Shown here piece by piece: positions 19,924-54,806 of a stretch of 64,000 bases of DNA. The first letter of the stretch is position 1. Every line of letters starts with the position of its first letter. The stretch is from Halichondria panicea. Its lineage: Eukaryota > Porifera > Demospongiae > Suberitida > Halichondriidae. The DNA is taken from assembly GCF_963675165.1 (NCBI RefSeq), contig NC_087390.1, positions 475,001-539,000 on the forward strand, given 5' to 3'. A program made the position numbers and the translations under genes. The notes beneath the pieces are model-generated. The model had not been told where the DNA came from and did no database searches. It was given only the letters and a program-made list of their open reading frames with translations.

Positions 19924-22704
19924 GACGGACGCAAGTGATGATAAATGTGTACGCTGACCTTGTGTTCCAGTTTGGAATGGCTGACGAGGACCAAGCCGCT
20001 TACATTTATTCAAGGACCAACACGGCTATGCAGTACATCAAAGCTGAACGGTTTTACGATGGCTTCAAGGTACACACACTATACACAGCATCAGAACTCT
20101 AGTCACAGAGGCAACTCTAGTACTCAGTACCTGTACAGGAACCAACTACTGAAGCCACTGACTAACTACAATGTATGTGCATCACGTACCCCCTCTCGTC
20201 CACCAGGGTTCAGTACCTAGCAGTTAGTGAACATTGTAGCCAGCTCTGTGCTTGTCTAAGCTATTACTCAACGCAGCTGTTACGGTTTATTCGGTGGCCA
20301 ATTCACAGAAGCTCAGCATCCAAAATCCATTTCACATTCTCAAAGTAGGTATAACATGTTTGTGCCGACTGTTGCAGATTTTTGATGCTCTGCTCAACGG
20401 AGATCTGATACCGTATCCTACGTACTTGTACAACATCACTGGATCTACCAACTACTACAACATTCTCAGGACCTCGCTAGGCACACGTATGTTGATAGAG
20501 TATGTCAGAAAGTGTTGGATAGAAGTATACAGTCCTGTTTGGAGTGGTATATACTCTTTTTACCTATACGTAGTGTACTGAACATTCTACTGTATTATTT
20601 ATCTTATGTTGGTACATACTTAACCAGTGTTTGGTTAAAGGGCTCTTGTTTGAGTAGCTAATTGAATTTGGGAATCTGTACAAGTTAAGTTGTGTGTATG
20701 GATTAAATTTGGGGAAGTCCTGGACTATACAATTATCTCTATAGTGGTCATGTACTGTGTTAGAGGACATTGAGAAGCTGTGTGCATGGCAAATAATGGC
20801 AAGAAAAATTAGCAGTAATACATGCTGCCCCCTCCCCTAAGCCATAGTCTAGCCTGCCACCCTGTTTGAACTTTACACTGGGGGAAACACTGACTTAAGT
20901 ATTGTAGGGTGTTGTTGAAATGTCATGCCCTGGGGTGATTGGTTTCTCCCTGTGTGTATACTTGTGTAAGGAAACCAATCTATAGCTGTCACCCCTTGCA
21001 AGGGCAGACCAACAGTGGCTATAATAAAGAGGTGGCCTGGTTAAAACACATGCTATGGAGACTCTGAAGCTTGTTAACCTGGCTGTATTGTAAAGGGTGC
21101 CTGATTATTGGCTGACCACAATAGACAAGTTTCACTGCATTTAATTTAGTTACAGTATAAGAACTGTAGAGGGCAATTGCTGACATTTCGGTCATTCAAA
21201 TTGATTATTTAAGACAGTTCTTCACATGCAATATTTCTTATTCGTCCAGCCTCCCCTGATTTTAACTACTACGTTCCCTTCATCAACACCACTGACATCA
21301 GACGAGCCATTCACGTCGGCAGTCTCAGCAATGGCTATCACGCTGAGGTGGACAGATTAAAGGTTGCTAGTTTTGTATATGTTCTTACCTCCTCCCCCCC
21401 CACACACACACACACACATTTCTTGTTCTCACCCCCCCCCCCCCACACACACACACACATTTCTTGTTCTTACCTCCCCCCCACACACACACACACATTT
21501 CTTGTGCACACACACATTTCTTGTTCTCCCCCCCCCCCACACACACACACACACATTTCTTGTTCTTACCTCCCCCCCACACACACACACATTTCTTTTT
21601 CTCACCCCTCCCCCCACACACACACACACACATTTCTTGTTCTCTTCCCCCCCCCACACACACATACACACACACATTTCTTGTTCTCCCCCCCACACAC
21701 ACACACACATTTCTTGTTCTCACCCCCCCCCCACACACACACATTTCTTGTTCTTACCTCCCCCCCCCACACACACACACATTTCTTGTTCTCCCCCCCC
21801 CCCCCCACACACACACACATATCTCTTGTTCTTACTTCCCCCCCACACATACATTTCTTGTTCTTACCCCCCCCCCCCATACACACACACACACATTTCT
21901 TGTTCTCCCCCCCCACACACACACATTTCTTGTTCTCACCCCCTCCCCCCCCACATACACACACATTTCTTGTTCTCATCCCTCCCCCACACACACACAC
22001 ACATTTCTTGTTCTCACCCCCCCCACACACACACACACACACACACATTTCTTGTTCTCCCCCCCCCCACACACACATTTCTTGTTCCCACCCCCCCCCC
22101 CCCACACACACACATTTCTTGTTCTCACCCCCCCCCCCACACACACACACACATTTCTTGTTCTCACCCCCACCCCACACACACCCACATATTCTTCTTC
22201 TCACCCCCCCCCACACACACCCACATATTCTTGTTCTCACCCCCCACACACACACACATATTCTTGTTCTCACCCCCCCCAAACACACACACACACATCT
22301 CTTGTTCTTACCCCCCCCCCACACACACACATTTCTTGTTCTCACCCCCCCCCCACACACACACACATTTCTTGTTCTCACCCCCACCCCACACACCCCA
22401 CACACACACACATATTCTTGTTCTCACCCCCCCCACACACACACACATATTCTTGTTCTCACCCCCCCCACACACACACATTAAAGTAGATTAAAGGTTT
22501 CTAATTTTGTTATGTTCGGGTTAACCCTAACCCTAACCCCCACACACATTTCTCCCTTCACAGATAGGAGATGATGTTGCCGGGTATGTGAGGACAGTGA
22601 ACAAGTTTATGCAGGTGGTCGTGAGAGGGGGTGGGCACATTCTCCCGTTTGACCAGCCGGAGAGAACACTCAACCTCATCCAGAACTTTGTGAACATGCA
22701 ATAG
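19923..22704 (+). pseudogene. CPVL: Serine carboxypeptidase CPVL-like, C-terminal exons, copy 1
   Basis: Four exons stay in frame: 19923-20069, 20378-20480, 21250-21362, 22564-22704; 167 residues plus stop. They read RTQVMINVYADLVFQFGMAD (post-GNGxTDP helix), PYPTYLYNITGS, FNYYVPFINTTDIRRAIHVG (lid/S10 family block) and GYVRTVNKFMQVVVRGGGHI, ending in LPFDQPER. The GGGHILP block holds the catalytic His of S10 serine carboxypeptidases. No exon with the nucleophile (GESYAG) or the catalytic Asp segment (NGxxD) is present here or upstream; the last intron holds a 1.1-kb minisatellite where the Asp exon should be. Exon 2 ends at a GC donor where copies 2 and 3 have GT. In-frame but catalytically incomplete: a duplicated 3' fragment. 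It could be transcribed, but no start is visible. Confidence 0.75.
21391..22486. repeat. 1.1-kb (CA)n-TTTCTTGTTCTCA-(C)n minisatellite
   Basis: About 30 units of roughly 33-40 bp: (CA)4-10, then tttcttgttctcacc or variants, then C8-14. It is open in all three + frames and in minus frames for over 300 codons, because the unit contains no stop in any phase. Shorter arrays sit at the same intron position in copies 2 (37675-38412) and 3 (49143-49467). Confidence 0.95.
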
Positions 22705-23025: not shown

Positions 23026-26000
23026 TCATAATAACTGAATAAACACAATTCTTCGTCTGACATCAACGTACTCGGGACATGTGACAATGTTCTTTTTTGT
23101 ATTCTTAAAAGCGCCGAATTCTTTCAGTGTTTTGTTTTCAAACAGCCCCCTGACAATTGGGGAGTAGTCGGTGATCCCAGCATTGAGGTGAAACACCTCT
23201 AGAGTCTTGTTCTTGGCTAACACATTACCAACAGCTTCAGCCTCGACAGTGGTAACAGTGTACGGTATTAAATCTTTTAATGGTGGCACATACAGGAGTT
23301 TCAGGTGTTTAACTGTATTGTTTTCTCTCAATGCTTCCAAGGCGGGTAGTAGATCCGGTAGCAAACGCTTAAAAAACCTAAGTTCAATGAATTGTAGAGT
23401 TGTATTCCGTTGAAACATTTCGGCCAGTTCAAGCGTTCCGAAATAATAAAGTGGTTCATTATAACTAATAGGAGGTGAAATAGTTAGCTCACTTGAGAAT
23501 CTACTACACATTCTCTCGGCTTTTGACGATCCTTTCTCATAGTACACATAAGGAGTGGGAAGTACACACTGTGTCCATGAGTCATTCAGTTTAGTCAATC
23601 CAGCTAAAAACAATAGAATCATCTTGTATGATCCATCATCAGCCTTTGTTTCAAACAAAAGAAACTGCTTGTGTGGGGTTTTATTTCTCCAGACATAAAA
23701 TGCAGCGAGGAACTCTTGAAGTGTTAGATGAAGGAAATTGTAAGATGGAGAACTGTTGCTTTTCTTATATAAAGGATGTACACTGTTCATGAATCCAAGT
23801 GTGTTAGTATCAACAACATCTTCCTTGAAAAAAACCAACTGTTGTTTTTTTTTTGTTATTCCATTGTATGCAATATGGCAGAGCTTATCAAAATGTACTT
23901 GAAGTGACGAAGGTAACTTACTCAGCTCACCACTCCAATCACTGTCTGAATGTCTTTTAATCAAAATTTGACAGTATTCGGTGTATAGTTCAGTTGTTGT
24001 GTTGGGGATTATGCTATTGCTATTCTCATGGTTTTCTCTGTAAACTTCGACTACTATTCTGGCATGAAGAGGGTTATACATTGCACTAGAGATACGTGGA
24101 TTAGAGTTAATGTATTTATGTAGTTCTGGTGGAGCCCCATCTTTGATCATTAGATCAATGTACTCTTGAATTTGTTCGGAAGAAAAACCTAAAATTTCAA
24201 TGAACTGATCAACTCTTGAGCTACAAGTAACAGGTAGATCGCATACAGCCCAGGGCCTAGTGGTAACAAGCACGGTACTAGCTGGCAGAAGACGTCCGGT
24301 TATTAGTTTTATAAAAATGGAATTTTTTTGTCTAAAGAATGGTGGCAACTCATCCAGGCCTTCCAAAACGAAAAGAATACCGTGCCCATGACAATTTTGT
24401 ATGATAGTAGTAGCAACAACATTTTTAGAAGCATCAGTATTTTCACATTGAAATAGATCAACTAATTCTACAGCTTCCTGAACATTCTCATCTCGAAGTC
24501 GGAGCAACACAACGAGGGAGTAATCTGTCCAAACTTCACCATTAGCCCATCGTCTGCACAGTTCCCATGACAAAGTCGTCTTACCTCCTCCAGGAGCCCC
24601 TTTAATGACAACTAGTTTAGAGAATTTGCCCTCTACTTTGGAAGCTATCTGGTCCATTGTGATTCTCTCTCTAGGAAATCCATCCAGCTCGCCTTTAACT
24701 ATTAGTGACCAGGACTCTTCCATTTTCTTTCTTGATAAATGTTTACTTACATCCGCACATTCTAGGTTAACAAAATGCTTAACACACTGGAGAGGATATT
24801 TGTCATCAGCAGGGAGAGATCTTGTATCGTAAATATTAGTTAAGTATGATCGATAAATTCCTATTGCTTCATCTGGTTGGATGGTGGAACGATTATCGGA
24901 TTTGGATTCTACAGTATAAAAGAATAATCATGAAGCGAAGGTAATAATACAGTGGAATCTTCAATAATGGGCCCTCCAAACTAAGTAAACTGTGAGAATT
25001 ACAACAAATAGGACTGCGCTTCCACCCCCAAACTTTCAGAGTCTTACATGAACTAATGCAGCAATCCCTGAGATGGGTCCTTTACTCTATCACCACTCAC
25101 ACAAACTACCGATTAGCTAACTCACTGGTTGGTCCAGGAGTCGTTGTGGACAATTTCTTCTTAGATGGCCCAGGTGAAGTATCGTCATCTGCTATAATTA
25201 TATATACAATTGACTGAAGTACATAAAGATAATAATATAAGTGTTCGTGATGAGTTGAACTATCCATTCACATAGTTAAGTACTGTTGACTATTCATGGA
25301 AATGCTTATAGTGTGGTCTATATTGCTAGTAGCCTCACAATTGTTCTACATATCTAAGTTACGTTCCTAGCTTTAGGCTACGGTATACTGATATTTATCA
25401 ATAGAAAAGGTCAAGGTTAGCCTCATGACTATTCATACCTGTACATGCCTCCTCTATAGCCTCAGCGACATCATTCCGTGCAACTGTTGGTGCTCTGAGA
25501 CTTTGACATATGTCAGAATAGGTGAGAGGGCCAGTCTTCAAGCGAGCAGATATCATTTCACGTAAGCAGTCCTTGTTCCTGTGACACTCATCTTTTATAT
25601 CTTTGAGGGTGCCAGGATCTAATCCCAGATCAAGTCCCAGGTCTAACCAGTCTCCAGCAGCTTTTATCAAGTTCTTGTAAACAAAATTCACATCACCGAG
25701 AGTCAGAATTGAGCCTATAAAAATTACAACCAAATGATAAGTACACATGGTCATACACATGGTTTATGCAAGCATGTTCTCTGAGGAGCAATGTCATTGT
25801 GTATATTATGTATCATAAGGAGACACCGCTTACCAAGCGTTGGTCCAGGGTTTGCTTCAACATCTCCTGACTGTAACAGTAAGCGGAATATCAGTAACAG
25901 TATATACAGACTGAGAGTGGGGGGCCGATTAGTGCTCTGAGCTCTCACTTGGAACTTGATCGGCTTTTCTTGAGTATCAAAAACTAGAAAGTAAGAGTGA

Positions 26001-36154: not shown

Positions 36155-38543
36155 GGACGGACGCAAGTGATGATGAATGCGTACGCTGACCTTGTGTTCC
36201 AGTTTGGAATGGCTGACGGGAACCAAGCCGCTTACATTTATTCCAGGACCAACACGGCTGTGCAGTACATCAAAGCTGAATGGTTTTACGATGGCTTCAA
36301 GGTACACACACTATACACAGCATCAGAACTCTAGTCACAGAGGCAACTCTAGTACTCAGTACCTGTACAGGAACCAACTACTGAAGCCACTGACTAACTA
36401 CAATGTATGTGCATCACGTACCCCCTCTCGTCCACCAGGGTTCAGTACCTAGCAGTTAGTGAACATTGTAGCCAGCTGTGTGCTTGTCTAAGCTATTACT
36501 CAACGCAGCTGTTACGGTTTATTCGGTGGCCAATTCACAGAAGCTCAGCATCCAAAATCCATTTCACATTCTCAAAGTAGGTATAACATGTTTGTGCCGA
36601 CTGTTGCAGATTTTTGATGCTCTGCTCAACGGATATCTGATACCGTATCCTACGTACTTGTACAACATCACTGGATCCACCAACTACTACAACATTCTCA
36701 GGACCTCGCTAGGTACACGTATGTTGATAGAGTATGTCAGAAAGTGTTGGATAGAAGTATACAGTCCTGTTTGGAGTGGTATATACTCTTTTTACCTATA
36801 CGTAGTGTACTGAACATTCTACTGTATTATTTATCTTATGTTGGTACATACTTAACCAGTGTTTGGTTAAAGGGCTCTTGTTTGAGTAGCTAATTGAATT
36901 AGGGAATCTGTACAAGTTAAGTTGTGTGTATGGATTGAATTTGGGGAAGTCCTGGACTATACAATTATCTCTATTGTGGTCATGTACTGTGTTAGAGGAC
37001 ATTGAGAAGCTGTGTGCATGGCAAATAATGGCAAGAAAGATTAGCAGTAATACATGCTGCCCCTCCCCCAAGCCATAGTCTAGCCTGCCACCCTGTTTGA
37101 ACTTTACACTGGGGGAACTGACTTAAGTTATTGTAGGGTGTTGTTGAAATGTCATGCCCTGGGGTGATTGGTTTCTCCCTGTGTGTATACTTGTGTAAGG
37201 AAACCAATCTATAGCTGTCACCCCTTGCAAGGGCAGACCAACAGTGGCTATAATAAAGAGGTGGTCTGGTTCAAACACATGCTATGGAGACTCTGAAGCT
37301 TGTTAACCTGGCTGTATTGTAAAGGGTGCCTGATTATAGGCTGACCACAATAGACAAGTTTCACTGCATTTAATTTAGTTACAGTATAAGAACTGTAGAG
37401 GGCAATTGCTGACATTTTGGTCATGCAAATTGATTATTTAAGACAGTTCTTCACATTCAATATTTCTTATTCGTCCAGCCTCCCCTGATTTTAACTACTA
37501 CGTTCCCTTCATCAACACCACTGTCATCAGACGAGCCATTCACGTCGGCAGTCTCAGCTATGGCTCTCAGTCTGAAGACGTGGAAATGGCCCTTGGAAAC
37601 AAGAGTGCAATCTCAGCTATGACTATCACGCTGAGGTGGACAGATTAAAGGTTGCTAGTTTTGTATATGTTCTCACATTTCTTGTTCTCACACCCCTTCA
37701 CACACACACACATTTCTTGTTCTCACCCCCCCACAAACATTGTTCTCCCCCCCCCCCCACACACACACACATTTCTTGTTCTCCCCCCCACAAACACACA
37801 AATTTCTTGTTCTCCCCCCCCCCCCCCCACACACACACACACATTTCTTGTTCTCCCCCCCACACACACACACAAATTTCTTGTTCTCCCCCTCACACAC
37901 GCACACACATTTCTTGTTCTGACCTCCCCCCCACACACACACACATTTCTTGTTCTCCCCCCCACACACACACACAAATTTCTTGTTCTCACCTTCCCCC
38001 CCCCCACACACACACAAATTTCTTGTTCTCACCTCCCCCCCACACACACATTTCTTGTTCTCACCTCCCCCCCACACACACATTTCTTGTTCTTACCTCC
38101 CCCCCCACACACACACACACATTTCTTGTTCTCACCTCCCCCCCACACACACACATTTCTTGTTCTCACCTCCCCCCCACACACACACATTTCTTGTTCT
38201 CACCTCCCCCCACACACACACATTTCTTGTTCTCACCCACCCCCACACACACACACATTTCTTGTTCTCACCTCCCCCCCACACACACACATTTCTTGTT
38301 CTCACCTCCCCCCCCACACACACACACATTTCTTGTTCTCACCCCCACACTCTCACCCCCACACACACACACACATTTCTTGTTCTCACCCCCCCCCCCA
38401 CACACACACACTTCTCCCCTTCACAGGTGTGGACAGTGAACAAGTTTATGCAGGTGGTCGTGAGAGGGGGTGGGCACATTCTCCCGTTTGACGAGCCGGA
38501 GAGAGCACTCAACCTCATCCAAAACTTTGTGAACATGCAATAG
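36155..38543 (+). pseudogene. CPVL: CPVL-like carboxypeptidase C-terminal exons, copy 2 (broken)
   Basis: Exons at 36155-36301, 36610-36712, 37479-37650 and 38427-38543. Exon 3 has 59 nt more than in copies 1 and 3 (coding SQSEDVEMALGNKSAI), flanked by an 11-bp direct repeat tctcagctatg; in this copy the frame runs to a TAA before the donor. The last exon has lost its first 29 or so nt (GDDVAGYV missing) but keeps the His block GGGHILPFDEPER. Exon 2 has a normal GT donor. Pseudogene, although exon 3 may preserve the ancestral length that copies 1 and 3 lost by deletion between the 11-bp repeats. Confidence 0.8.
37675..38412. repeat. (CA)n-TTTCTTGTTCTCA-(C)n minisatellite, copy 2
   Basis: Same unit as 21391-22486, about 20 units, with variants such as cacaaatttcttg. 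Same intron position. Confidence 0.95.
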
Positions 38544-38877: not shown

Positions 38878-41800
38878 TTAATTATTAAAAGGGTCCTTCT
38901 TCATAAACACAATTCTTCGTCTGACATCAACGTACTCGGGACATGTGACAATGTTCTTTTTTGTATTCTCAGAAGTGCCGAATTCTTTCAGGGTTTTGTT
39001 TTCCAACAGCCCCCTGACAATTGGGGAGTAGTCGGTGATCTCAGCATTGAGGTGAAACACCTCTAGAGTCTTGTTCTTGGCTAACACATTACCGACAGCT
39101 TCAGCCTCTTCAGTGGTAACAGTGTACGGTTTAAACTTACTGATTGGTGGCACATACAGACAGAGTGTCAGGTGTTTAACTGTATTGTTTTCTCTCAATG
39201 CTTCCAAGGCGGGTAGTAGATCCCCTGGCAACTGTATACAAAACATAAGTTCAATGAATTGTAGAGTTGTATTAAGTTGAAACGTTCCGAAATCATAATC
39301 ATAATCTGAGTGCCTACTATAAGTATATAAAAAATCAAGCGGTTCATTATAATTAATATAAGGTGAAATATTTAGCTTAGTTAGACTTGTGTTAACTTGC
39401 AGTCCCTGCATTAAATGACTCAGGCTACTTTTCAAATAAACATGATGCAGTGTCAATTCCTCTAGAGATGTGTCAGTCTGTAGATACTCACCAATAGCTT
39501 CATCAAAATCGCAGTCAAGGTGACATGTAAGTTTAAGGCTTTTAATGGAATGTAATCGATTGTCTTTGAGATAACGTAAAAGTTCACAGACATTATCAGG
39601 ACATAACAAAGTTAGTGATTGCAAGTGCTGGGGGGTACAGAAATATTCAAATTGGCCCTTTATTTCACTTTGGATATCGAGTTCTTTAAGTATCGGACAA
39701 TTGAGTAGAGTACTAAAAAGCTGCTCAGATTGTGCGGGGGTCAAGTGAAATTTGGAAGAGCATCGCAGATATTGTAAGCTTAGTTTCCAGTGGCTTAATA
39801 TTGAAATTAAGTTTTTGGTGGTAGACTCTGAAAAAACAGTTTTTAGAAACGTTCTTTTTGCTTTGTTATTGGTAAATGAAATTTCAGACAGTAAATGTGG
39901 CAAGATTTTCGTGTTGTTCCTTTTTAACTCAGTCACGTTCAATCCAATTGAAATACACCCATTATCAGTATTTATGATGATGGGTGAGTTAATAATAGAC
40001 GGCTCTTGTACCAAATGTATCACCAACATTTCAATACTAGAATGTGCAATGAAGTCAGACAACAACTCTTCATCAGCTGGCGATACTCGAGCACATTTCA
40101 AAACTTTCAAGCAGTGTTTTGGCTTCAAAATATCAAGTATTCGTATCACAGTGTCTCTTGAGATGCCAAAATCTAGCTCTACAACACTTAAGTTTGGAGA
40201 TAGCTCTATAGTGTCAAATATTTTTAATGTACATGGAACCTCAGGCCCAACAAATTTATCGTCAATATATCCTGATCTTTGATTACTGATAGTGACGCTT
40301 TCTAATTCTGGTAGTATCCTATCAGTGAGTGAATGCCAAGCAGATGGAATCTTGAATGTGGTAGACATTTTCAGATGCCTTACACTTAGAGTAAAAGAAG
40401 GCAAAACTTTGTTGATTCCTGCTAACATCATCGATCTATCCACATAACTTATATTAAACTTGAACATGTCCATTAGAGTTACTTTAAAATGAGCAGAAGC
40501 TACAACATAACCAAGTGCAAACTGATCAATTCTCCAATCATCTAGCGGTAGTTCATACAGCACATTACAATACAAGTCCTTCATGGCTTGCACATTTTGG
40601 CTTTCATAGATCCACAGAATTTGATCACTTGAGAATCTACACATTCTCTCGGCTTTTGACGATCCTTTCACATAAGGAGTTGGAAGTACACACTGTGTCC
40701 ATGGGTCATTCAGTTTAGTCAATCCAGCTAAAAACAACAGAATCATCTTGTATGATCCATCATTAGCATTCGTTTCAAACAAAATCAACTGCTCGTGTGG
40801 GGTTTTATTTTTCCAGACGTAAAATGCAGCGAGGAACTCTTGAAGTGTTAGATGAAGGAAATTGTAAGATGGAGAACTGTTGCTTTTATTATGTAAAGGA
40901 TGTACACTGTTCATGAATCCGAGTGTGTTAGTATCAACAACATCTTCCTTGAAAAAAACCAACTGTTGTTTTTCTTTTGTTATTCCAATGTACGCAAATT
41001 GGCAGAGTTTATCAAAATGTACCTGAAGTGACCAAGGTAACTCACTAAGCTCGTCACTCCAATCACTCTCTGGTTTGTCATGTAAATATCTTTCAATTAA
41101 AACTTGACAGTATGCAGTGTATAGTTCAGTTGTTGTGGTAGGAAAGACGCTGCTTTTTTTGTGATAATTTTTTTTGTAAACATCAACTACAATTCTGGCA
41201 TGAAGAGGGTTATACATTGCGCTAGATATATGTGGATTAGAGTTAATGTATTCACGTAGTTCTGGTGGAGCCTCTCGATTTTTTATCATTAGATCAATGT
41301 ACTCTTTAATTTGTTCGCCAGAAAAACCTAAGATTTCGATGAACTGATCAACTCTTGAGCTACAAGTGACAGGTAGATCACATACAGCCCAGGGCCTAGT
41401 GGTAACAAGCACAGTACTAGCTGGCAGAAGACGTCCGGTTATTAGCTTCATAAATATGGAGTCTTTTTCTCTAAGGGATGGTGGCAATTCATCCAGGCCT
41501 TCCAAAATGAAAAGTATGCCCTGCCCATGATTCTTTCGGATAATAGTATAAATATTTTTGGAATCATCAGTATCTTCACATTGAAATAGATCAACTAATT
41601 CTACAGCTTCCTGAATATTCTCATCTCGAAGTCGGAGCAATACAACGAGGGAGTAATCTGTCCAAACTTCATCATTAGCCCATCGTCTGCACAGCTCCCA
41701 TGACAAAGTCGTCTTACCTCCTCCAGGAGCCCCCTTAATGACAACTAATTTAGAGAATTTGCCTTTTACTTTGGAAGCTATCTGGTCCATTGTGATTCTC

Positions 41801-44800
41801 TCTCTTGGAAATCTATCCAGCTTGCCTTGAACTATTTTTGACCAAGACTCTTCGATTTCCTCTCTGGATAAATGTTTACTTACATCCGCACATTCTAGGT
41901 TAACAAAGTCTTTAACACACTGGAGAGGATATTTGTCATCAGCAGGGAGGGATCTTGTATCGTAAATACTAGTTAAGTATGATCGATAAATTCCTATTGC
42001 TTCATCTGGTTGGATGGTGGAACGATTATCGGATTTGGATTCTACAGTATAAAAGAATAATCATGAAGCGAAGGTAATAATACAGTGTAATCTTCAATAA
42101 TGCATGGGCCCTCAAAACTAAGTAAACTGTGAGAAATACAACAAATAGGACTGCGCTTCCACCCCTAAACTTTCAGAGTCTTACATGAAAAAATGCAGCA
42201 ATCCCTGAGATGTGTCCTTTACTCTATCACCACTCACACAAACTACCGATTAGCTAACTCACTGGTTGGTCCAGGAGTCGTTGTGGACAATTTCTGCCGC
42301 CCAGGTGAAGTATCGTCATCTGAAAGTCATAATTCGTTGCTATACAATTGACTAAGAACATACCAATAATTGTAAAATTTGGTAGGTGTTTTAATTTGGT
42401 GTTTTTTTGGAAATTTATCGAAAATCGCCAAATTTAAAAAGTTTTTCGGTGGACACAATGTCATTGCTGTAGTAGCCACACCTGAGACACCAAATTAAAA
42501 ACTGCCATGCAATTACGTTCAAATGGCTCATCTGCTAATAATAATAATATCCGCCAAATTATAGTGTTAATAATGTGCCCTTCCAACTAAGTAATTATAA
42601 TTGTATAAAGTGTGGATACACTGTTCGATATTATTAATAGTACCTCTCCAAATAGGGCTGTAATTCTATCCCCTGAACTTTCTTACATGAAAAAGTGTAC
42701 AGATGATTATGTAGTCTTTTATCTATCACTGTATACACACAAACTAAACTGATTAATAATATTAGGTAAGGCAATTCACTCACTGATTGGTTCACGTTTT
42801 GAATATTCTTCAATGCTGGTGGCTGTGTCCTCTTTTCCCAGACGGCGGACAATAGTTAGAAGTGCTTGAAATGTCGCTTCTTTGGGTTTCCTTCTCTTCC
42901 AGCATTTCAAGCATAGATGTACTGCAACCCTTGTGTTCTCTGCTCGCTTTACATCACCGTCTTCATGAGGGTCTAGTGATAATGCGGCAGCAAGAAGTGT
43001 AGCACTATCAAAATAAGTAGCCAAATGAATCAGATCTCCATCTTTTATCACCGTATCTAGCATTGAAGCTTCCAAGGTTTCTGTGAGTCCAGCACCACCT
43101 AATGAACAATATATATAATTATTATCAGTCGCTATAATTATATTAATTATGTTATGTATTACAAAATAATAATGCAGGTTTGGTACAGCGTTGTACTATA
43201 ATACTGTAGGCACATATAATGATAAACCAAAACACAAAACACAAATGGAAACAAAACATTCAATAATTGACCCTCCAAACTATTCTACCGCAATAGATTC
43301 AGCGTTACTATCCTGAGCTGTACGAATATTTAAAACACGAAAATTAATATTAAAAATAATGAGTATTTCATACGAATTTGCACCAACGAATATTACTCGC
43401 TATATAGATACGGTAGGTACACTAAGTCTACTTGCTGAACTACGTACACTAGTAACAATAATTAATATAGAAATTATGGTAACTAATTATGATAATGGGC
43501 GATGGTGACCGAAGCTATTAAGATCAATGCCCGTGGTTCCATATTAATTTTATCAAGTAATATAAGAAATAATTGCAAGCCCTCCAAACTAAATAAATAC
43601 AGTACCACTCCAAATAAAGCTGTGCTTCCATCCCAGTACATAAACAATGTATAGCAATCTTTCAAAGGTCCATGTCTTTTATTCTATCTATCACAACTCA
43701 CACAAACTACCGATTAGCTAACTCACTGGTTGGTCCAGGAGTCGTTGTGGATAATTTCTGCCTCTTAGATGGTCCAGGTGAAATATCATCATCTGAAAGT
43801 AAGTAAATGTTTGTTATGATTACAATTGACTAAAGTACTGTATTTCATCTAAGTTACATTCCTGACTAGGCTGGTAAAATATCCATTCATGTACAACTTC
43901 CATCAATACAAACTACCGATTAGCTAATTAAGGTGATTCACTCACTGGTTGGTTCAGGATTCATTGTAGACGTATTTGTTTTAGATGGCCCAGGTGAAGT
44001 ATCGTCAACTGAACGTAAATAATTAGATACTATATAATTATACAAAAGTACATAATTATAGTAGTGTACCTGATGTGGTCAACTACGTATATACCCATGC
44101 GTTCACATACCTAAGTCTATCCATAGAAATGCTTATAGTGTGGTCGAGGTTAGCCTCATCACTATTCATACCTGTACATTCCTCCTCTATAGCCTCAGCA
44201 AGGAAGTTTTGTCCAACTGTTGGTGCTCTGAGACTCTGACACAATTCAGAATACGTAACACTGGCAATTTTCAAGCGAGCAGCTAGCATTTCACGTAGAC
44301 AGTTTTGATTGTCTCCATGTTTATCCCTGATATTATCGAGGGTGTCATAGCTCACTTTCAGAGCAAGTCCCAAGTTAAACCATTTTCCAGCGGCATTAAT
44401 CAGTTTCTCGTAAACAGACAACAAATCATCGATAGTCAGAATCGAGCCTATAAAAATATTAATTTCAATGGCATACACATGCATGGTCTATAAATAACTG
44501 ACAGTATTTTATATATAATATGCATACAGAAGATAACACTTACCTAGCGTTGGTCCAGGGTTTGCTTCAACATCTCCTGACTGTAACAGTAAGCGGAATA
44601 TCAGTAACAGTATATACAGACTGAGAGTGGGGGGCCGATTAGAGCTCTGAACTCTCACTTGGAACGTGGTCGGCTTTTCTTGAGTATCGAAAACTAAAAA
44701 GTAAGAGTGACGTTTATAATTATTGTAGCAGTAAATAATTATATATAGTTGATTACCTGATGTGGTTGAGTTCCATTGTTTCCGAGGGTTCCATCTCACC

Positions 44801-45560
44801 AAGCAGGCAGTGATGAGCGAGTAGCAGGTGATAAGCACAGCAGACAGAATGAGAACGGCCAGTGCACTCCCCCTCCATCCCAGCTCACAAGGAAACACTC
44901 CGGTCCAACTCAAGTCAACCACAGGGCAAGCAGGACGTGGGGGAGCTGTGTAGAGTTACATAAATATATTCATGTGCTGTGACATCACAAGTGTGGGTCA
45001 TGAGATTCCGTGAATAGCAATTAAGTAATACACTAATGGCTGTTTCCTTAAGTGTATTGTAGCCCATAATAATTATGAGTAGAGTACAAGGGAGTATTAT
45101 GAGACCTCTATAAAATTAATGTTTCTGACCAATTAATGTCAGCTAAATAGCCTGTTCACTAAACCATAAATATTCATGTGCTATATTCATGTGCTGTGTC
45201 ATCACAAGTGTGTGTCATGAGATTCCGTGAATACCAAGCAATGCTGTTTAAAACTGACCTTTATATTATACGTAGCGTATGCCCCGTAATATGCTCTGTA
45301 TAATTATACCAAAGTGTATGATAAGAAATGTTATGCAACTATTGGTGAGTATGCTTCACTGACTTACAGGAAAAAGTTTGTAAGAAAAGTATGTATCTGA
45401 TGGTGACCATAATGAGGTAGAGTTGGTAGAGGACAGGGGTGATCAACACAGAGGCAAGGCTGGCTCTGAGCTGCCAACTAGGCTTAGGGAAAACCAGGGT
45501 AACATCGTCGTCCAGATCATTTGAGAAATAACGGGCATGTCTCTGAGATGTTATCTTCAT
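38878..45560 (-). CDS. NLR2: TM leader / 2A / two death-fold domains / NACHT / LRR
   Basis: Nine exons on minus: 45368-45560, 44757-44945, 44544-44693, 44172-44447, 43946-44008, 43727-43792, 42784-43098, 42263-42319, 38878-42041; 1490 residues, every junction phase 1. Leader, third hydrophobic run and SGDVEANPGP as in the sisters, predicted 2A break 174/175. First death domain 178-269. Two linker exons (SPGPSKTNTSTMNPEPT; SPGPSKRQKLSTTTPGPT) follow. Next is a private 105-codon exon with a second death-fold domain (ETLEASMLDTVIKDGDLIHL, LCLKCWKRRKPKEATFQALL), then a third linker. NACHT Walker A GAPGGGKT is at 540-547 (41710-41733); Walker B is ILFILEGLDELP. About 700 further residues hold helical and leucine-rich repeats (LKVLKCARVSPADEELLSDF, LQSLTLLCPDN, SLEELTL). 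Predicted cytosolic receptor. All splice joins preserve frame, a strong sign of function. Confidence 0.88.
42784..43098 (-). other. NLR2-specific exon: second death-fold domain
   Basis: Exactly 315 nt, phase 1-1, so its gain or loss leaves the frame intact. The protein (about residues 313-417) starts SGAGLTETLEASML and ends YSKREPI, helical with pattern DLIHLATYF, LLAAALSL, VAVHLCLKCW and FQALLTIVRRLGKEDTATSI: death or death-effector type by eye. No equivalent exon lies in NLR1 or NLR3. Confidence 0.75.
44551..44592 (-). other. 2A-like ribosome-skipping motif in NLR2
   Basis: LLLQSGDVEANPGP, same position as in NLR1 and NLR3, residues 162-175. Confidence 0.9.
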
Positions 45561-47679: not shown

Positions 47680-49665
47680 GACGGACGCAAGTGATGATGA
47701 ATGCGTACGCTGACCTTGTGTTCCAGTTTAGAATGGCTGACGAGAACCAAGCCGCTTACATTTATTCAAGGACCAACACGGCTGTGCAGTACATCAAAGC
47801 TGAATGGTTTTACGATGGCTTCAAGGTACACACACTATACACAGCATCAGAACTCTAGTCACAGAGGCAACTCTAGTACTCAGTACCTGTACAGGAACCA
47901 ACTACTGAAGCCACTGACTAACTACAATGTATGTGCATCACGTACCCCCTCTCGTTCACCAGGGTTCAGTACCTAGCAGTTAGTGAACATTGTAGCCAGC
48001 TGTGTGCTTGTCTAAGCTATTACTGAACGCAGCTGTTACGGTTTATTTGGTGGCCAATTCACAGAAGCTCAGCATCCAAAATCCATTTCACATTCTCAAA
48101 GTAGGTATAACATGTTTGTGCCGACTGTTGCAGATTTTTGATGCTCTGCTCAACGGAGATCTGATACCGTATCCTACGTACTTGTACAACATGACTGGAT
48201 CCACCAACTACTACAACATTCTCAGGACCTCGCTAGGTACACGTATGTTGATAGAGTATGTCAGAAAGTGTTTGATAGAAGTATACAGTCCTGTTTGGAG
48301 TGGTATATACTCTTTTTACCTATACGTAGTGTACTGAACATTCTACTGTATTATTTATCTTATGTTGGTACATACTTAACCAGTGTTTGGTTAAAGGGCT
48401 CTTGTTTGAGTAGCTAATTGAATTTGGGAATCTGTACAAGTTAAGTTGTGTGTATGGATTGAATTTGGGGAAGTCCTGGACTATACAATTATCTCTATTG
48501 TGGTCATGTACTGTGTTAGAGGACATTGAGAAGCTGTGTGCATGGCAAATAATGGCAAGAAAGATTAGCAGTAATACATGCTGCCCCTCCCCCAAGCCAT
48601 AGTCTAGCCTGCCACCCTGTTTGAACTGTACACTGGGGGAAACACTGACTTAAGTATTGTAGGGTGGTGTTGAAATGTCATGCCCTGGGGTGATTGGTTT
48701 CTCCCTGTGTGTATACTTGTGTAAGGAAACCAATCTATAGCTGTCACCCCTTGCAAGGGCAGACCAACAGTGGCTATAATAAAGAGGTGGTCTGGTTCAA
48801 ACACATGCTATGGAGACTCTGAAGCTTGTTAACCTGGCTGTATTGTAAAGGGTGCCTGATTATAGGCTGACCACAATAGACAAGTTTCACTGCATTTAAT
48901 TTAGTTACAGTATAAGAACTGTAGAGGGCAATTGCTGACATTTTGGTCATGCAAATTGATTATTTAAGACAGTTCTTCACATTCAATATTTCTTATTCGT
49001 CCAGCCTCCCCTGATTTTAACTACTACGTTCCCTTTATCAACACCACTGACATCAGACGAGCCATTCACGTCGGCAGTCTCAGCAATGGCTATCACGCTG
49101 AGGTGGACAGATTAAAGGTTGCTAGTTTTGTATATGTTCTTACCTCCCCCCCCCACACACACACATTTCCCACACACACACACATTTCTTGTTCTCACCC
49201 CCCCCCCCCCACACACACACACATTTCTTGTTCCTACCCCACACACACACACATATTCTTGTTCTTACCCCCCCACACACACATTTCTTGTTCTCACCCC
49301 CCCCACACACACACATTTTTGTTCTTACCTCCCCCCCACACACACACATACTCTTGTTCTCACCCCCCCCCCCACACACACATTTCTTGTTCTCACCCCC
49401 CCCACACACACACATATTCTTGTTCTCACCCTCCCCCCACACACACACACACACATTAAAGGTTTCTAATTTTGTTATGTTCGGGTTAACCCTAACCCCC
49501 ACACACACATTTCTCCCTTCACAGATAGGAGATGATGTTGCCGGGTATGTGAGGACAGTGAACAAGTTTATGTAGGTGGTCGTGAGAGGGGGTGGGCACA
49601 TTCTCCCGTTTGACCAGCCGAAGAGAGCACTCAACCTCATCCAGAACTTTGTGAACATGCAATAG
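47679..49665 (+). pseudogene. CPVL: CPVL-like carboxypeptidase C-terminal exons, copy 3 (nonsense)
   Basis: Exons 47679-47825, 48134-48236, 49005-49117, 49525-49665, same lengths and phases as copy 1. In the last exon the CAG after NKFM is TAG (49573-49575), removing the catalytic His block. Exon 2 has TYLYNMTGS where the others have NITGS. As in the other copies, no Ser or Asp exon. Confidence 0.85.
49143..49467. repeat. (CA)n-TTTCTTGTTCTCA-(C)n minisatellite, copy 3
   Basis: Shortest array, about 9 units, same intron position as 21391 and 37675; the same tttctaattttgttatgttc...ggttaaccctaac sequence follows it as in copy 1. Confidence 0.93.
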
Positions 49666-49986
49666 CCTATTATAATTATGTTGTCTGGAAATGATCATGC
49701 TTCAAGTATAAGGATAAAAATGAAATTTATAATTATAGTCGTGTCATTTAATATGTTGTTTGAAGAGAAGATTTTAATTACCAAATCAACGAAACGATCA
49801 AAAACAATTGCTATTAGAGACATAAATAATTATGGAGTGTATAATTATTGTACAGAGTTTATACTCTCTGCCCAATGGTACACAAAAATATACTGTACAT
49901 GTATAAGAAAGATAGCCACCGATTGGGAAGACTTATAAGATTTAGTATACAAACTAGACCATAACATAAAACAGGAGTCATACATA
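49666..49986. other. Spacer between CPVL-like copy 3 and NLR3 stop
   Basis: Near copy of 22705-23025 and 38544-38877. Nothing else seen. Confidence 0.6.
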
Positions 49987-52900
49987 CTAGTCAATAAACA
50001 CAATTCTTCGTCTGACATCAACGTACTCGGGACATGTGACAATGTTCTTTTTTGTATTCTCAGAAGTGCCGAATTGTTTCAGTGTTTTGTTTTCAAACAG
50101 CCCCCTGACAATTGGGGAGCACTCGGTGATCTCAGCATCGAGGTGAAACACCTCTAGCGTCTTGTTCTTGGCTAACACATTACCGACAGCTTCAGCCTCT
50201 TCAGTGGTAACAGTGTATGGTTTAAACTTACTGATTGGTGGCACACACAGACAGAGTGTCAGGTGTTTAACTGTATTGTTTTCTCTCAATGCTTCCAAGG
50301 CGGGTAGTAGATCCCCTGGCAACTTTATACAAAACGTAAGTTCAATGAATTGTAGAGTTGTAGGAAACATTTGGGCCAGTTCAAACGTTCCGAAACCATA
50401 ATCAAGCGGTTCATCATAACTCATAATAGGTGACATTGTTAGCTTAGTTAGACATGTGTTAACTTGCAGTCCCTGCCATAAATGACTCTGGCTACTTTTG
50501 AAATTCCAATAACGCAGTGTCAATTCCTCTAGAGATGTGTCAGTCTGTAGATACTCACCAATAGCTTCATCAAAATCGCAGTCAAGGTTACATGTAAGTT
50601 TAAGGCTTTTAATGGAATGTAATCGATTGTCTTTGAGAGAACGTAAAACTTCACAGGCATTATCAGGACATAACAAAGTTAGTGATTGCAAGTGCTGGGG
50701 GGTACAGAAATATTCAAATTGGCCCATTATTTCCCTTTGGATATCGAGTTCTTTAAGTATCGGACAATTGAGTAGAGTACTAAAAAGCTGCTCAGATTGT
50801 GCGGGGGTCAAGTTAACACGGGAAGAGCATCGCAGATATTGTAAGCTTAGTTTCCAGTGGCTTAATATTGAAATTAAGTTTCTGATAGTAGACTCTGAAA
50901 AAACCTCATTGTCTGTTGAAAATATTCTTTTTGCTTCGTTATCGGTAAACGAATGTTCAGACAGTAAATGTGGTAAGATTTTCGTGTTGTTCCTTTTTAA
51001 CTCAGTCACGTTCAATCCAATTGAAATACACCAATTATCAGTATCTGTGATGGGTGAGACAATAATAGAAATTGCTTGTACAGTAATAGGAATCACCAAC
51101 ATTTCAATACTAGAATGTGCAATGAAGTCAGACAACAACTCTTCATCAGCTGGCGATACTTGAGCACATTTCAAAACTTTCAAGCAGTGTTTTGGCTTCA
51201 AAATATCAAGTATTCGTATCACAGTGTCTCTTGAGATGCCAAAATCTAGCTCTACAACACTTAAGTTTGGAGATAGCTCTATAGTGTCAAATATTTTTAA
51301 TGTACATGGAACCTCAGGTCTATCAAATTCATCGTTAATAACTCCTGATCTTGGATTACTGATTATGACGCTTTCTAATTCTGGTAGTATCCTATCAGTG
51401 AGTGTATGCCAAGCAGATGGAATCTTGAATGTGGTAGACATTTTCAGATGCCTTACACTTAGAGTAAAAGAAGGCAAAACTTTGTTCATTCCTGCTAATA
51501 TCATCGATCTATCCACATCACTGTCATTAAACTCGAACATGTCCATTTCAGTTACTTTGAAATGAGCAGAAGCTACAACATAACCAAGTGCAAACTGATC
51601 AATATCATCATCATATAGCGGTGGTTCATACAGCACATTACAATACAAGTCCTTCATGACTTGCACATTTTGGCTTTCATAGATCCACAGAATTTGATCA
51701 CTTGAGAATGTACACATTCTCTCGGCTTTTGACGGTCCTTTCTCATGGTACAAGTAAGGAGTTGGAAGTACACACTGAGTCCATGAGTCATTCAGTTTAG
51801 TCAATCCAGCTAAAAACAATAGAATCATCTCGTAAGATCCATCATCAGCCTTTGTTTCAAACAAGATCAACTGCTCGTGTGGAGTTATATTTTTCCAGAC
51901 GTAAAATGCAGCGAGGAACTCTTGAAGTGTTAGATGAAGGAAATTGTAAGATGGAGAACTGTTGCTTTTGTTATATAAAGGATGTACACTGTTCATGAAT
52001 CCGAGTGTGTTAGTATCAACAACATCTTCCTTGAAAAAAACCAACTGTTGTTTTTCTTTGGATATTCCATTGTACGCAATTTGGCAGAGTTTATCAAAAT
52101 GTATCTGAAGTGACCAAGGTAACTCACTAAGCTCGTCACTCCAATCACTCTCTGGTTTGTCATGTAAATATCTTTCAATTAAAACTTGACAGTATGCAGT
52201 GTATAGTTCAGTTGTTGTGTTAGGAAAGACGCTGTTTTTTTTGTGACAATTTTTTTTGTAAACATCAACTACAATTCTGGCATGAAGAGGGTTATACATT
52301 GCACTAGAGATACGTGGATTAGAGATAATGTATTCACGTAGTCCTGGTGGAGCCTCTCGATTTTTGATCATTAGATCAATGTACTCTTTAATTTGTTCGC
52401 CAGAAAAACCTAAGATTTCGATGAACTGATCAACTCTTGAGCTACAAGTAACAGGTAGATCACATACAGCCCAGGGCCTAGTGGTAACAAGCACGGTACT
52501 AGCTGGCAGGAGACGTCCGGTTATTAGCTTCATAAATATGGAGTCTTTTTCTCTAAGGGATGGTGGCAATTCATCCAGGCCTTCCAAAATGAAAAGTATG
52601 CTCTGCCCATGATTCTTTCGGATAATAGAATAAACACTTTTGGAATCATCAGTATCTTCACATTGAAATAGATCAACTAATTCTACAGCTTCCTGAACAT
52701 TCTCATCTCGAAGTCGGAGCAATACAACCAGGGAGTAATCTGTCCAAACTTCACCATTAGCCCATCGTCTGCACAGTTCCCATGACAAAGTCGTCTTACC
52801 TCCTCCAGGGGCCCCCTTAACGACAACTAATTTAGAGAATTTGCCTTTTACTTTGGAAGCTATCTGGTCCATTGTGATTCTCTCTCTTGGAAATCTATCC

Positions 52901-54806
52901 AGCTTGCCTTGAACTATTTCTGACCAAGACTCTTCGATTTCCTCTCTGGATAAATGTTTACTTACATCAGCACATGTTAGGTTAACAAAATGCTTAACAC
53001 ACTGGAGAGGATATTTGTCATCAGCAGGGAGAGATCTTGTATCGTAAATACTAGTTAAGTATGATCGATAAATTCCTATTGCTTCATCTGGTTGGATGGT
53101 GGAATGATTATCGGACTTGGATTCTACAGTATAAAAGAATAATCATGAAGCGAAGGTAATAATACAGTGGAATCTTCAATAATGGGCCCTCCAAACTAAG
53201 TAAACTGTGAGAAATACAACAAATAGGACTGCGCTTCCACCCCCAAACTTCCAGAGTCTTACATGAACAAATACAGCAATCCTTGAGGTGTGTCCTTTAC
53301 TCTATCACCACTCACACAAACTATACCGATTAGCTAACTCACTGGTTGGTCCAGGAGTCGGTGTGGACAATTTCTTCTTAGATGGCCCAGGTGAAGTATC
53401 GTCATCTGCTATAATTAAATATACAATTGACTAAAGTACATAAAGATAATATATAAGTGTTCGTGACGAGGTGGACTATCCATTCACATAGTTAAGTGCT
53501 GTTGACTATTCATAGAAATGCTTACAGTGTAGTCTATATTGCAGTAGCCTCACAACTGTCCTACATATTTTAGTTACGTTCCCGGCTTTAGGCTACGGTA
53601 TACTGATATTTATCCATAGAAATACTGGTCAAGGTTAGCCTCATGACTATTCATACCTGTACATGCCTCCTCTATAGCCTCAGCGACATCATTCCGTTCA
53701 ACTGTTGGTGCTCTGAGACTCTGACATATTTCAGAATAAGTGAGAGGGCCAGTCTTCAAGCGAGCAGCCAGCACTTCACATAGACGAATTTGATTATCTC
53801 GATGTTTATCACTGATATTATTGAGGGTGTCAAAACCTAATCCCAGATCAAGTCCCAGGTTGAACCAGTTTCCAACAGCTTTTATCAGGTTCTTGTAAAC
53901 AGAATTCAAATCATCGAGAGTAAGAATTGAGCCTACAAAAATTACCAGTGAATGGTAAGTGAATGGCACACACATGGTTTAAGCATACTCTATAAACAAC
54001 TGACAGCAGTTTGTACAAAGAGACTGCTTACTAAACGTTGGTCCAGGGTTTGCTTCTACATCTCCTGACTGTAACAGTAAGCGGAATATCAGTAACAGTA
54101 TATACAGACTGAGAGTGGGGGGCCGATTAGAGCTCTGAGCTCTCACTTGGAACTTGATCGGCTTTTCTTGAGTATCAAAAACTAGAAAGTAAGAGTGACG
54201 TTTATAATTATTGTGGCAGTAAATATTACCTGATGTGGTTGAGTTCCATTGTTTCCGAGGGTTCCATCTCACCAAGCAGGCAGTGATGAGTGAGTAGCAG
54301 GTGATAAACACAGCTGACAGAATGAGAACGACCAGTGCACTCCCCCTCCATCCCAGCTCACAAGGAAACACTCCGGTCCAACTCAAGTCAACCACAGGGC
54401 AAGCAGGACGTGGGGGTGCTGTGTAGAGTTGCATAGATATATTCATGTGCTGTGACATCACAATTGTGGTCATGACTCCGTGAATGCACTAATGGCTGTT
54501 TAAACTGTCCTTTAAGCATAATGTGGCCTATATTAATATGCTCGGTATAATTATACCAAGTGTATGATAAGAAATGTTATGCAATTATTGGTGAGTATGC
54601 TTCACTGACTTACAGGAAAAAGTTTGTAAGAAGAGTATGTATCTGATGGTGACCATAATGAGGTAGAGTTGGTAGAGGACAGGGGTGATCAACACAGAGG
54701 CAAGGCTGGCTCTGAGCTGCCAACTAGGCTTACGGAAAACCAGGGTAACATCGTCGTCCAGATCATTTGAGAGATAACGGGCATGTCTCCGAGATGTCAT
54801 CTTCAT
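49987..54806 (-). CDS. NLR3: TM leader / 2A / death domain / NACHT / LRR
   Basis: Six exons on minus: 54614-54806, 54230-54418, 54032-54181, 53657-53932, 53343-53408, 49987-53123; 1336 residues, all junctions phase 1. Same order as NLR1 but with the full LRR region: hydrophobic leader segments, SGDVEANPGP (break 174/175), death domain 178-269 (YKNLIKAVGNWFNLGLDLGL, RNDVAEAIEEAC), one linker exon (SPGPSKKKLSTPTPGPT), NACHT with GAPGGGKT at 395-402 and ILFILEGLDELP, then about 700 residues of helical/leucine-rich repeats. The 2A Val codon is GTA where the other copies have GTT, a silent change. An in-frame upstream ATG exists (54968) but the MKMTS start is shared with the sisters, so I use it. 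Probably the canonical domain form of the family. Confidence 0.88.
54039..54080 (-). other. 2A-like ribosome-skipping motif in NLR3
   Basis: LLLQSGDVEANPGP, identical protein sequence to NLR1 and NLR2 despite silent differences. Confidence 0.9.

Follow-up and report, generated by a model that had tools for sequence, protein, structure and literature searches.

Three genes in the window, the whole stretch of 64,000 nt from Halichondria panicea that was analysed, encode DEATH-NACHT receptors that carry a 2A motif behind a membrane leader. The 2A element in the first of these genes (copy 1) is real and conserved, very probably coding and probably active. Judging from its sequence, it is likely to be a working StopGo (2A) element that closes the membrane leader and releases an immune receptor, with one mRNA probably yielding both a membrane peptide and a free receptor. 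If the element is active, what is annotated as a membrane-bound fusion receptor would for the most part consist of a separate membrane peptide and a cytosolic receptor starting with Pro, and a 2A behind the transmembrane part would change the reading of membrane-bound NLRs in sponges.

Gene models and domains in the window

The copy 1 motif, LLLQSGDVEANPGP, spans 14 residues at 25841-25882 and includes the octapeptide DVEANPGP at 25841-25864. The first-pass annotation had reported a full D(V/I)ExNPGP match in exon 3 at this place but no strand; the motif lies on the minus strand, and the plus-strand translation of the same interval is unrelated to it and contains stops. Six GT-AG exons, all on the minus strand, were joined in silico, with splicing inferred: exon 1 (26642-26450) with the start ATG and the first hydrophobic segment of the leader; exon 2 (26229-26041) with the second segment; exon 3 (25983-25834; 150 nt, phase 1 at both ends) with a basic loop, the third segment and the 2A; exon 4 (25714-25439) with the DEATH domain; exon 5 (25191-25126), a linker; and exon 6 (24908-23026) with NACHT and the C-terminal part. 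A single frame runs through all six, which agrees with the earlier claims that a leader precedes and a death-NACHT part follows the motif in frame and that exons 2, 3 and 4 are joined. The predicted products are a peptide of 174 aa up to NPG and a receptor of 744 aa from Pro; a 174-residue peptide with two or three hydrophobic segments had been anticipated, and the translation gives three segments as well as the expected receptor start PTLGSIL. In the three window copies checked, the stretch from the preceding in-frame stop to the start contains no in-frame ATG, and the start ATG is conserved in 21 of 21 loci that align there (27 loci were compared, 6 of which have no alignment at this position).

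The hydrophobic segments of the copy 1 leader occupy residues 36-54, 95-113 and 151-169, and the 2A core directly adjoins the third. The net charges before and between them (+1, 0 and +5) suggest an N-in topology, under which integration of segment 3 would place the unseparated form on the lumenal side. Nothing in Pfam matched the leader over the cut-off; Commissureless (E 0.0059) and COX2_TM (E 0.082) were both below it, and neither name was kept for the leader family.

NACHT was found over the Pfam cut-off in all three window copies (PF05729; E 2.5e-19 for copy 1, 2e-19 and 1.7e-20 for the others). Exon 4 of copy 1 had no Pfam Death match. A profile of 47 DEATH-exon sequences, searched against the PDB, matched death domains in 15 of 15 cases at E<=1 (best E 1.8e-4), including those of FADD, PIDD and CRADD, and the AF2 model of copy 1 exon 4 is a confident helical bundle (pLDDT 93.8). 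The C-terminal sequence looks LRR-like by eye, with no Pfam LRR match at E<=1 in the three copies, and the label "NLR" for the window genes rests on DEATH and NACHT.

Copies 2 and 3 have the same layout on the same strand; all three copies are intact, with GT-AG introns and, in the spliced models, an open frame on both sides of the 2A. Copy 2 (38878-45560; seven exons, 1366 aa) has its octapeptide DVEANPGP at 44551-44574, with exons 1 to 4 at 45560-45368, 44945-44757, 44693-44544 (2A) and 44447-44172 (DEATH) and later exons at 44008-43946, 43792-43727 and 42041-38878 (NACHT). Copy 3 (49987-54806; six exons, 1336 aa) has DVEANPGP at 54039-54062, with exons 1 to 4 at 54806-54614, 54418-54230, 54181-54032 (2A) and 53932-53657 (DEATH), followed by exons at 53408-53343 and 53123-49987 (NACHT). 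Copy 1 has a last exon of 1883 nt (23026-24908), versus 3164 nt in copy 2 (38878-42041) and 3137 nt in copy 3 (49987-53123), and its C-terminal repeat region is much shorter than those of the other two. Long open frames of simple repeats (PPHTHTHISCS-like) lie 3' of each receptor copy, at 21213-22494, 37576-38543 and 48968-49694.

Distribution of 2A motifs in the genome

In the 131-Mb genome, the pattern GAYRTHGARNNNAAYCCNGGNCC has 97 matches and the degenerate pattern RAYRTNGARNNNAAYCCNGGNCC has 118, with none in the reversed control for either, which exceeds chance. A 32-residue query found 94 places, of which 47 have E<=3e-7, and the copy 1 gene is thus one of at least 47 family members (family A) rather than a lone case. 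The coupling of the 2A to the DEATH exon was counted over the best 54 of 166 DEATH-exon matches (E<=8e-23): 48 of these have a same-strand 2A no more than 2.5 kb upstream, and in 44 the distance is 71-174 nt. The remaining 6 of the best 54 have no 2A within 2.5 kb upstream, which counts against an active 2A. A 2A lies 165-240 nt downstream of all 47 matches to leader exon 2 (40 in the DEATH family and 7 on contig C2), a count that excludes exon-1 matches and one overlapping match with stops; because every such match adjoins a 2A, none is left for the six DEATH exons without one. The upstream exons of seven 2A copies (L061, L062, L064, L068, L073, L078 and L080) were not matched by the leader query. 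The leader thus implies a 2A, and a 2A does not imply a leader of the copy 1 type. Pairs with the same translation around the 2A occur on contig C14, about 100-230 kb apart (500842/600135, 529040/732962 and 549660/779327), and are either segmental duplications or unresolved haplotypes. No relatives were found in sets of prokaryotic and viral contigs, which tell little here.

The fetched loci contain 97 distinct 2A sites, of which 67 have a DEATH match within the following 1 kb and 14 have a CARD-like match there, leaving 16 without either. In total, 81 of the 97 precede a DEATH or CARD-like exon, a figure to be read with the fact that many of these loci were also used to build the two profiles; L036 and L088 were not among them and match nonetheless. 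The 16 others comprise family E (5), retrotransposon-like sites (5), L078, and L013, L032, L090, L091 and L092. The last five have 2A octapeptides in frames without a DEATH or CARD match; Pfam gave a weak bZIP match for L092 and none for L032 and L090. Family E (L030, L037, L038, L082 and L086) has a 2A and matched neither profile, and the Pfam scan of L030, the one locus of the five that was scanned, was negative. The retrotransposon-like sites are L011 and L034, assigned from Pfam matches to PHD and endonuclease domains, and L012, L014 and L015, assigned from similar sequence after the 2A. No endonuclease or RT frame follows the 2A in the window copies, where DEATH-NACHT stands instead; endonuclease was found only elsewhere (L011 and L034), and the window genes do not have the makeup of retrotransposons.

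The context of the 2A is LLLQSGDVEANPGP in family A; elsewhere it is HLLLLAGD(V/I)ESNPGP in family B (contigs C5, C6, C10 and C13), LLLLLAGDVELNPGP in family C (C3, C4 and C11), LLLLLAGDVETNPGP on C1, LLILSGDVELNPGP on C15 and LLLQCGDVESNPGP on C2. The leaders differ between families. The C2 leader is of the family A type (68% identity over residues 71-120), and a CARD-like exon follows its 2A. NACHT lies downstream of the 2A on C1 and C15; it is not claimed for families B and C, as frames from L095, L096, L097 and L017 had no Pfam match at E<=0.1. The best PDB match of the CARD-like profile was a design on template 1cy5 (E 8e-4), which we take to be the Apaf-1 CARD, and Pfam CARD matched 3 of 12 CARD-like members (best E 0.071); the CARD-like assignment is weak.

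Candidate phase-1 donors, recognised by consensus only, lie 1-10 nt past the last Pro codon in families A (47/47), B (16/16) and C (3/3) and on C1 (2/2), C2 (11/11), C15 (1/1) and C7 (1/1); by the same consensus, none was found in family E (0/5) or at one C13 site (0/1). Exon shuffling needs equal phases. The position of 81 of the 97 sites before DEATH or CARD-like exons, together with candidate phase-1 exon ends in seven families, makes the leader-2A unit look like an exchangeable exon cassette. In the DEATH- and CARD-linked loci the hydrophobic segment adjoining the 2A scores 1.3-3.1, apart from three extra 2A units of L103, which have only 12 open residues upstream; the retrotransposon-like 2As score 0.16-0.95. 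L103 (C2:7822600-7831000) contains four 2A octapeptides spaced by about 2 kb. The last three lie in short repeated exons (HLFSHHLLLQCGDVESNPGP); a CARD-like exon comes after each of them, and no leader was detected. The locus represents either tandem genes or one multi-2A gene. L093 (C2:7771000-7772500), a copy of the C2 type, reads LLLQCGDVKPNPGP, with K for E, outside the published core; it is perhaps a decayed 2A and a natural control.

Selection on the motif and the predicted mechanism

Computed over 47 exon-3 loci, which comprise 41 distinct aligned sequences, pS is 0.084, pN 0.014 and pN/pS 0.16 (bootstrap over codons, 0.03-0.52) for the 14 motif codons. The ratio is 0.86 (0.44-2.43) in the rest of exon 3, 0.72 (0.39-1.41; 29 loci) in exon 1, 0.56 (0.28-1.06; 40 loci) in exon 2 and 0.76 (0.58-0.99; 46 loci) in exon 4. 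The motif codons are the most constrained stretch among those compared, with a bootstrap interval that overlaps those of exons 1 and 2 and with copies that are not independent, and the low ratio indicates that they are under purifying selection. For the introns, the distances are 0.115 over 36 loci and 0.092 over 6 loci. In-frame stops are absent from exons 1 (0/29 loci), 2 (0/40) and 3 (0/47). A stop occurs in the reference-aligned codons of 8 of 46 DEATH exons, which counts against an active 2A and may reflect pseudogenes or alignment slips. All 47 exon-3 loci have a GT donor. For the acceptor, 38 loci have AG at the aligned position and 4 have it 9 nt further in; the other 5 of 47 show no obvious acceptor, which also counts against activity. 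Across 36 distinct sequence stretches that surround the motif, three substitutions account for all variation in the octapeptide: V to I in 4, A to V in 2 and D to N in 2. All 47 family loci have D or N in the core and fit (D/G/C/N)(V/I)ExNPGP; the two D-to-N variants support the 2A reading because they stay within this published functional core.

The rivals differ in how they fare with these data. Somewhat unlikely is joint production, in which the 174-residue membrane peptide would have a job of its own (as partner, decoy or channel), StopGo would fix its ratio to the receptor, and dual targeting would be incidental. The leader and 2A exons of family A are intact and, with a pS of 0.05-0.07 against 0.22, have diverged less than the DEATH exon, as such a role would have it and as if the leader-2A cassette spreads or gets homogenised, but leader codons outside the 2A are weakly constrained (0.56-0.86), and with different leaders in other families no shared peptide function is evident. 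It is quite unlikely that the receptors are merely membrane-anchored, with the hydrophobic segments being what matters and the 2A an inactive relic, for example of a retrotransposon: the motif codons stand at 0.16 against 0.86 for the remaining exon 3, the 2A is retained at 47 of 47 leader matches, and in the two cases where D is replaced the replacement is N, a residue published as active, although the genome does hold retrotransposon-type 2As with PHD and endonuclease domains (L011 and L034) and the available text of PMC12909245 proposes membrane-bound NLRs in sponges. Alternative splicing as the main switch, with exon 3 skipped to give a leader-DEATH fusion and included to give a free receptor, is very unlikely. 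In its favour, exons 2-5 of copy 1 (189, 150, 276 and 66 nt) are all multiples of 3 with phase-1 ends, so that skipping would keep the frame, but such symmetric exons are equally expected from exon shuffling, and splicing by itself leaves the conservation of the D-V-E-x-N-P-G-P codons unexplained.

In the preferred reading, an active StopGo element, leader segments 1 and 2 would bring the ribosome to the ER, and the chain would be released at NPG as a membrane peptide while segment 3 is still in the exit tunnel. The same ribosome would then resume at Pro and make the cytosolic DEATH-NACHT receptor, and in a minority of passes the Gly-Pro bond would form, yielding a full-length receptor targeted to the membrane. 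The available sections of Li 2026 (PMC12846837) explain the release at NPG and report that an LLLLSG-like upstream class supports StopGo, that the motif-6 example is active and that, in almost all cases, little activity was left once characteristic residues had been changed. The hexapeptide LLLQSG of family A resembles this class by eye, with Q differing from the published LLLLSG, and this likeness and the selection on the motif codons would together speak for 2A activity. According to the accessible part of De Felipe 2010 (PMC2978324), translocon engagement can inhibit 2A, depending on the sequence just upstream, and for this reason the separated form might be a minority in the animal; as the sequence just upstream of the 2A in the window genes is hydrophobic, separation may depend on ER engagement. 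An unlikely extension holds that the leader-2A exon is a phase-1 cassette set before several DEATH and CARD-like families and that the StopGo yield reports engagement of the leader with the ER translocon. If so, working ER entry would give one mix of membrane-linked and free receptor, and a stressed or hijacked ER would shift the mix, arming the cell during translation itself. The near-identical and the unrelated leaders form a natural series for the mutual effects of ER engagement and 2A recoding.

Comparison with known systems

2A sequences at the start of non-LTR retrotransposon frames were reportedly described by Odon in 2013. A few sites here (L011, L034, L012, L014 and L015) are of that kind; unlike them, the window genes encode DEATH-NACHT rather than endonuclease, and the retrotransposon 2As lack the strong hydrophobic segment. 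A survey by Rao in 2025 (Cell Rep 44:115822) is said to cover viral and cellular 2As. It lay outside the scope of our literature search on 2A in NLRs of sponges and other invertebrates and may list such genes; within that scope, the search returned the sea urchin work and no recognised sponge case. The first-pass annotation had regarded a multi-span leader before a 2A as apparently undescribed, and the pattern of such a leader with a cassette does appear new in the searchable literature, in which the form and scale of the receptor 2A cassette also looked new.

As in sponge NLR repertoires such as that of Dysidea avara, for which the available text of PMC12909245 describes large NACHT families with transmembrane segments in some members, the window genes belong to a large family; a term search of that text found no mention of a 2A-like sequence or ribosome skipping. 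With the StopGo elements of RNA viruses, as far as the available sections of PMC12846837 describe them, the window 2As share the core octapeptide, an L-rich hexapeptide ending in (A/S/C)G and D at p12, the hexapeptide being LLLQSG in family A and LLLLAG in others; unlike them, they sit in a cellular, spliced immune gene and not in a viral polyprotein.

The closest precedent is that of Strongylocentrotus purpuratus, where 2A-like sequences at the N termini of NLR genes are already known, as had been stated at first pass, and this limits the novelty of the window genes, which vary the sea urchin theme. In the part of Roulston 2016 (PMC4981915) available, recoding by a sea urchin NLR 2A is put at about 80%, its two products are sorted, and the unseparated form enters the secretory pathway. 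Like these SpNLR2A sequences, the window 2As stand at the start of DEATH-NACHT receptors, behind a hydrophobic stretch before D(V/I)ExNPGP, and belong to a large receptor family, which in the sea urchin amounts to about 35% (85/241) in the same text. The 14 cases tabulated there have a 26-residue N-terminal 2A that is itself the signal; no such extreme N-terminal 2A was found in the window genes, where 174 residues precede the cleavage point. Unlike SpNLR2A as described in that text, the window 2A comes after a leader of 174 residues in which two more hydrophobic segments lie, has its own phase-1 exon and is common to DEATH and CARD-like families.
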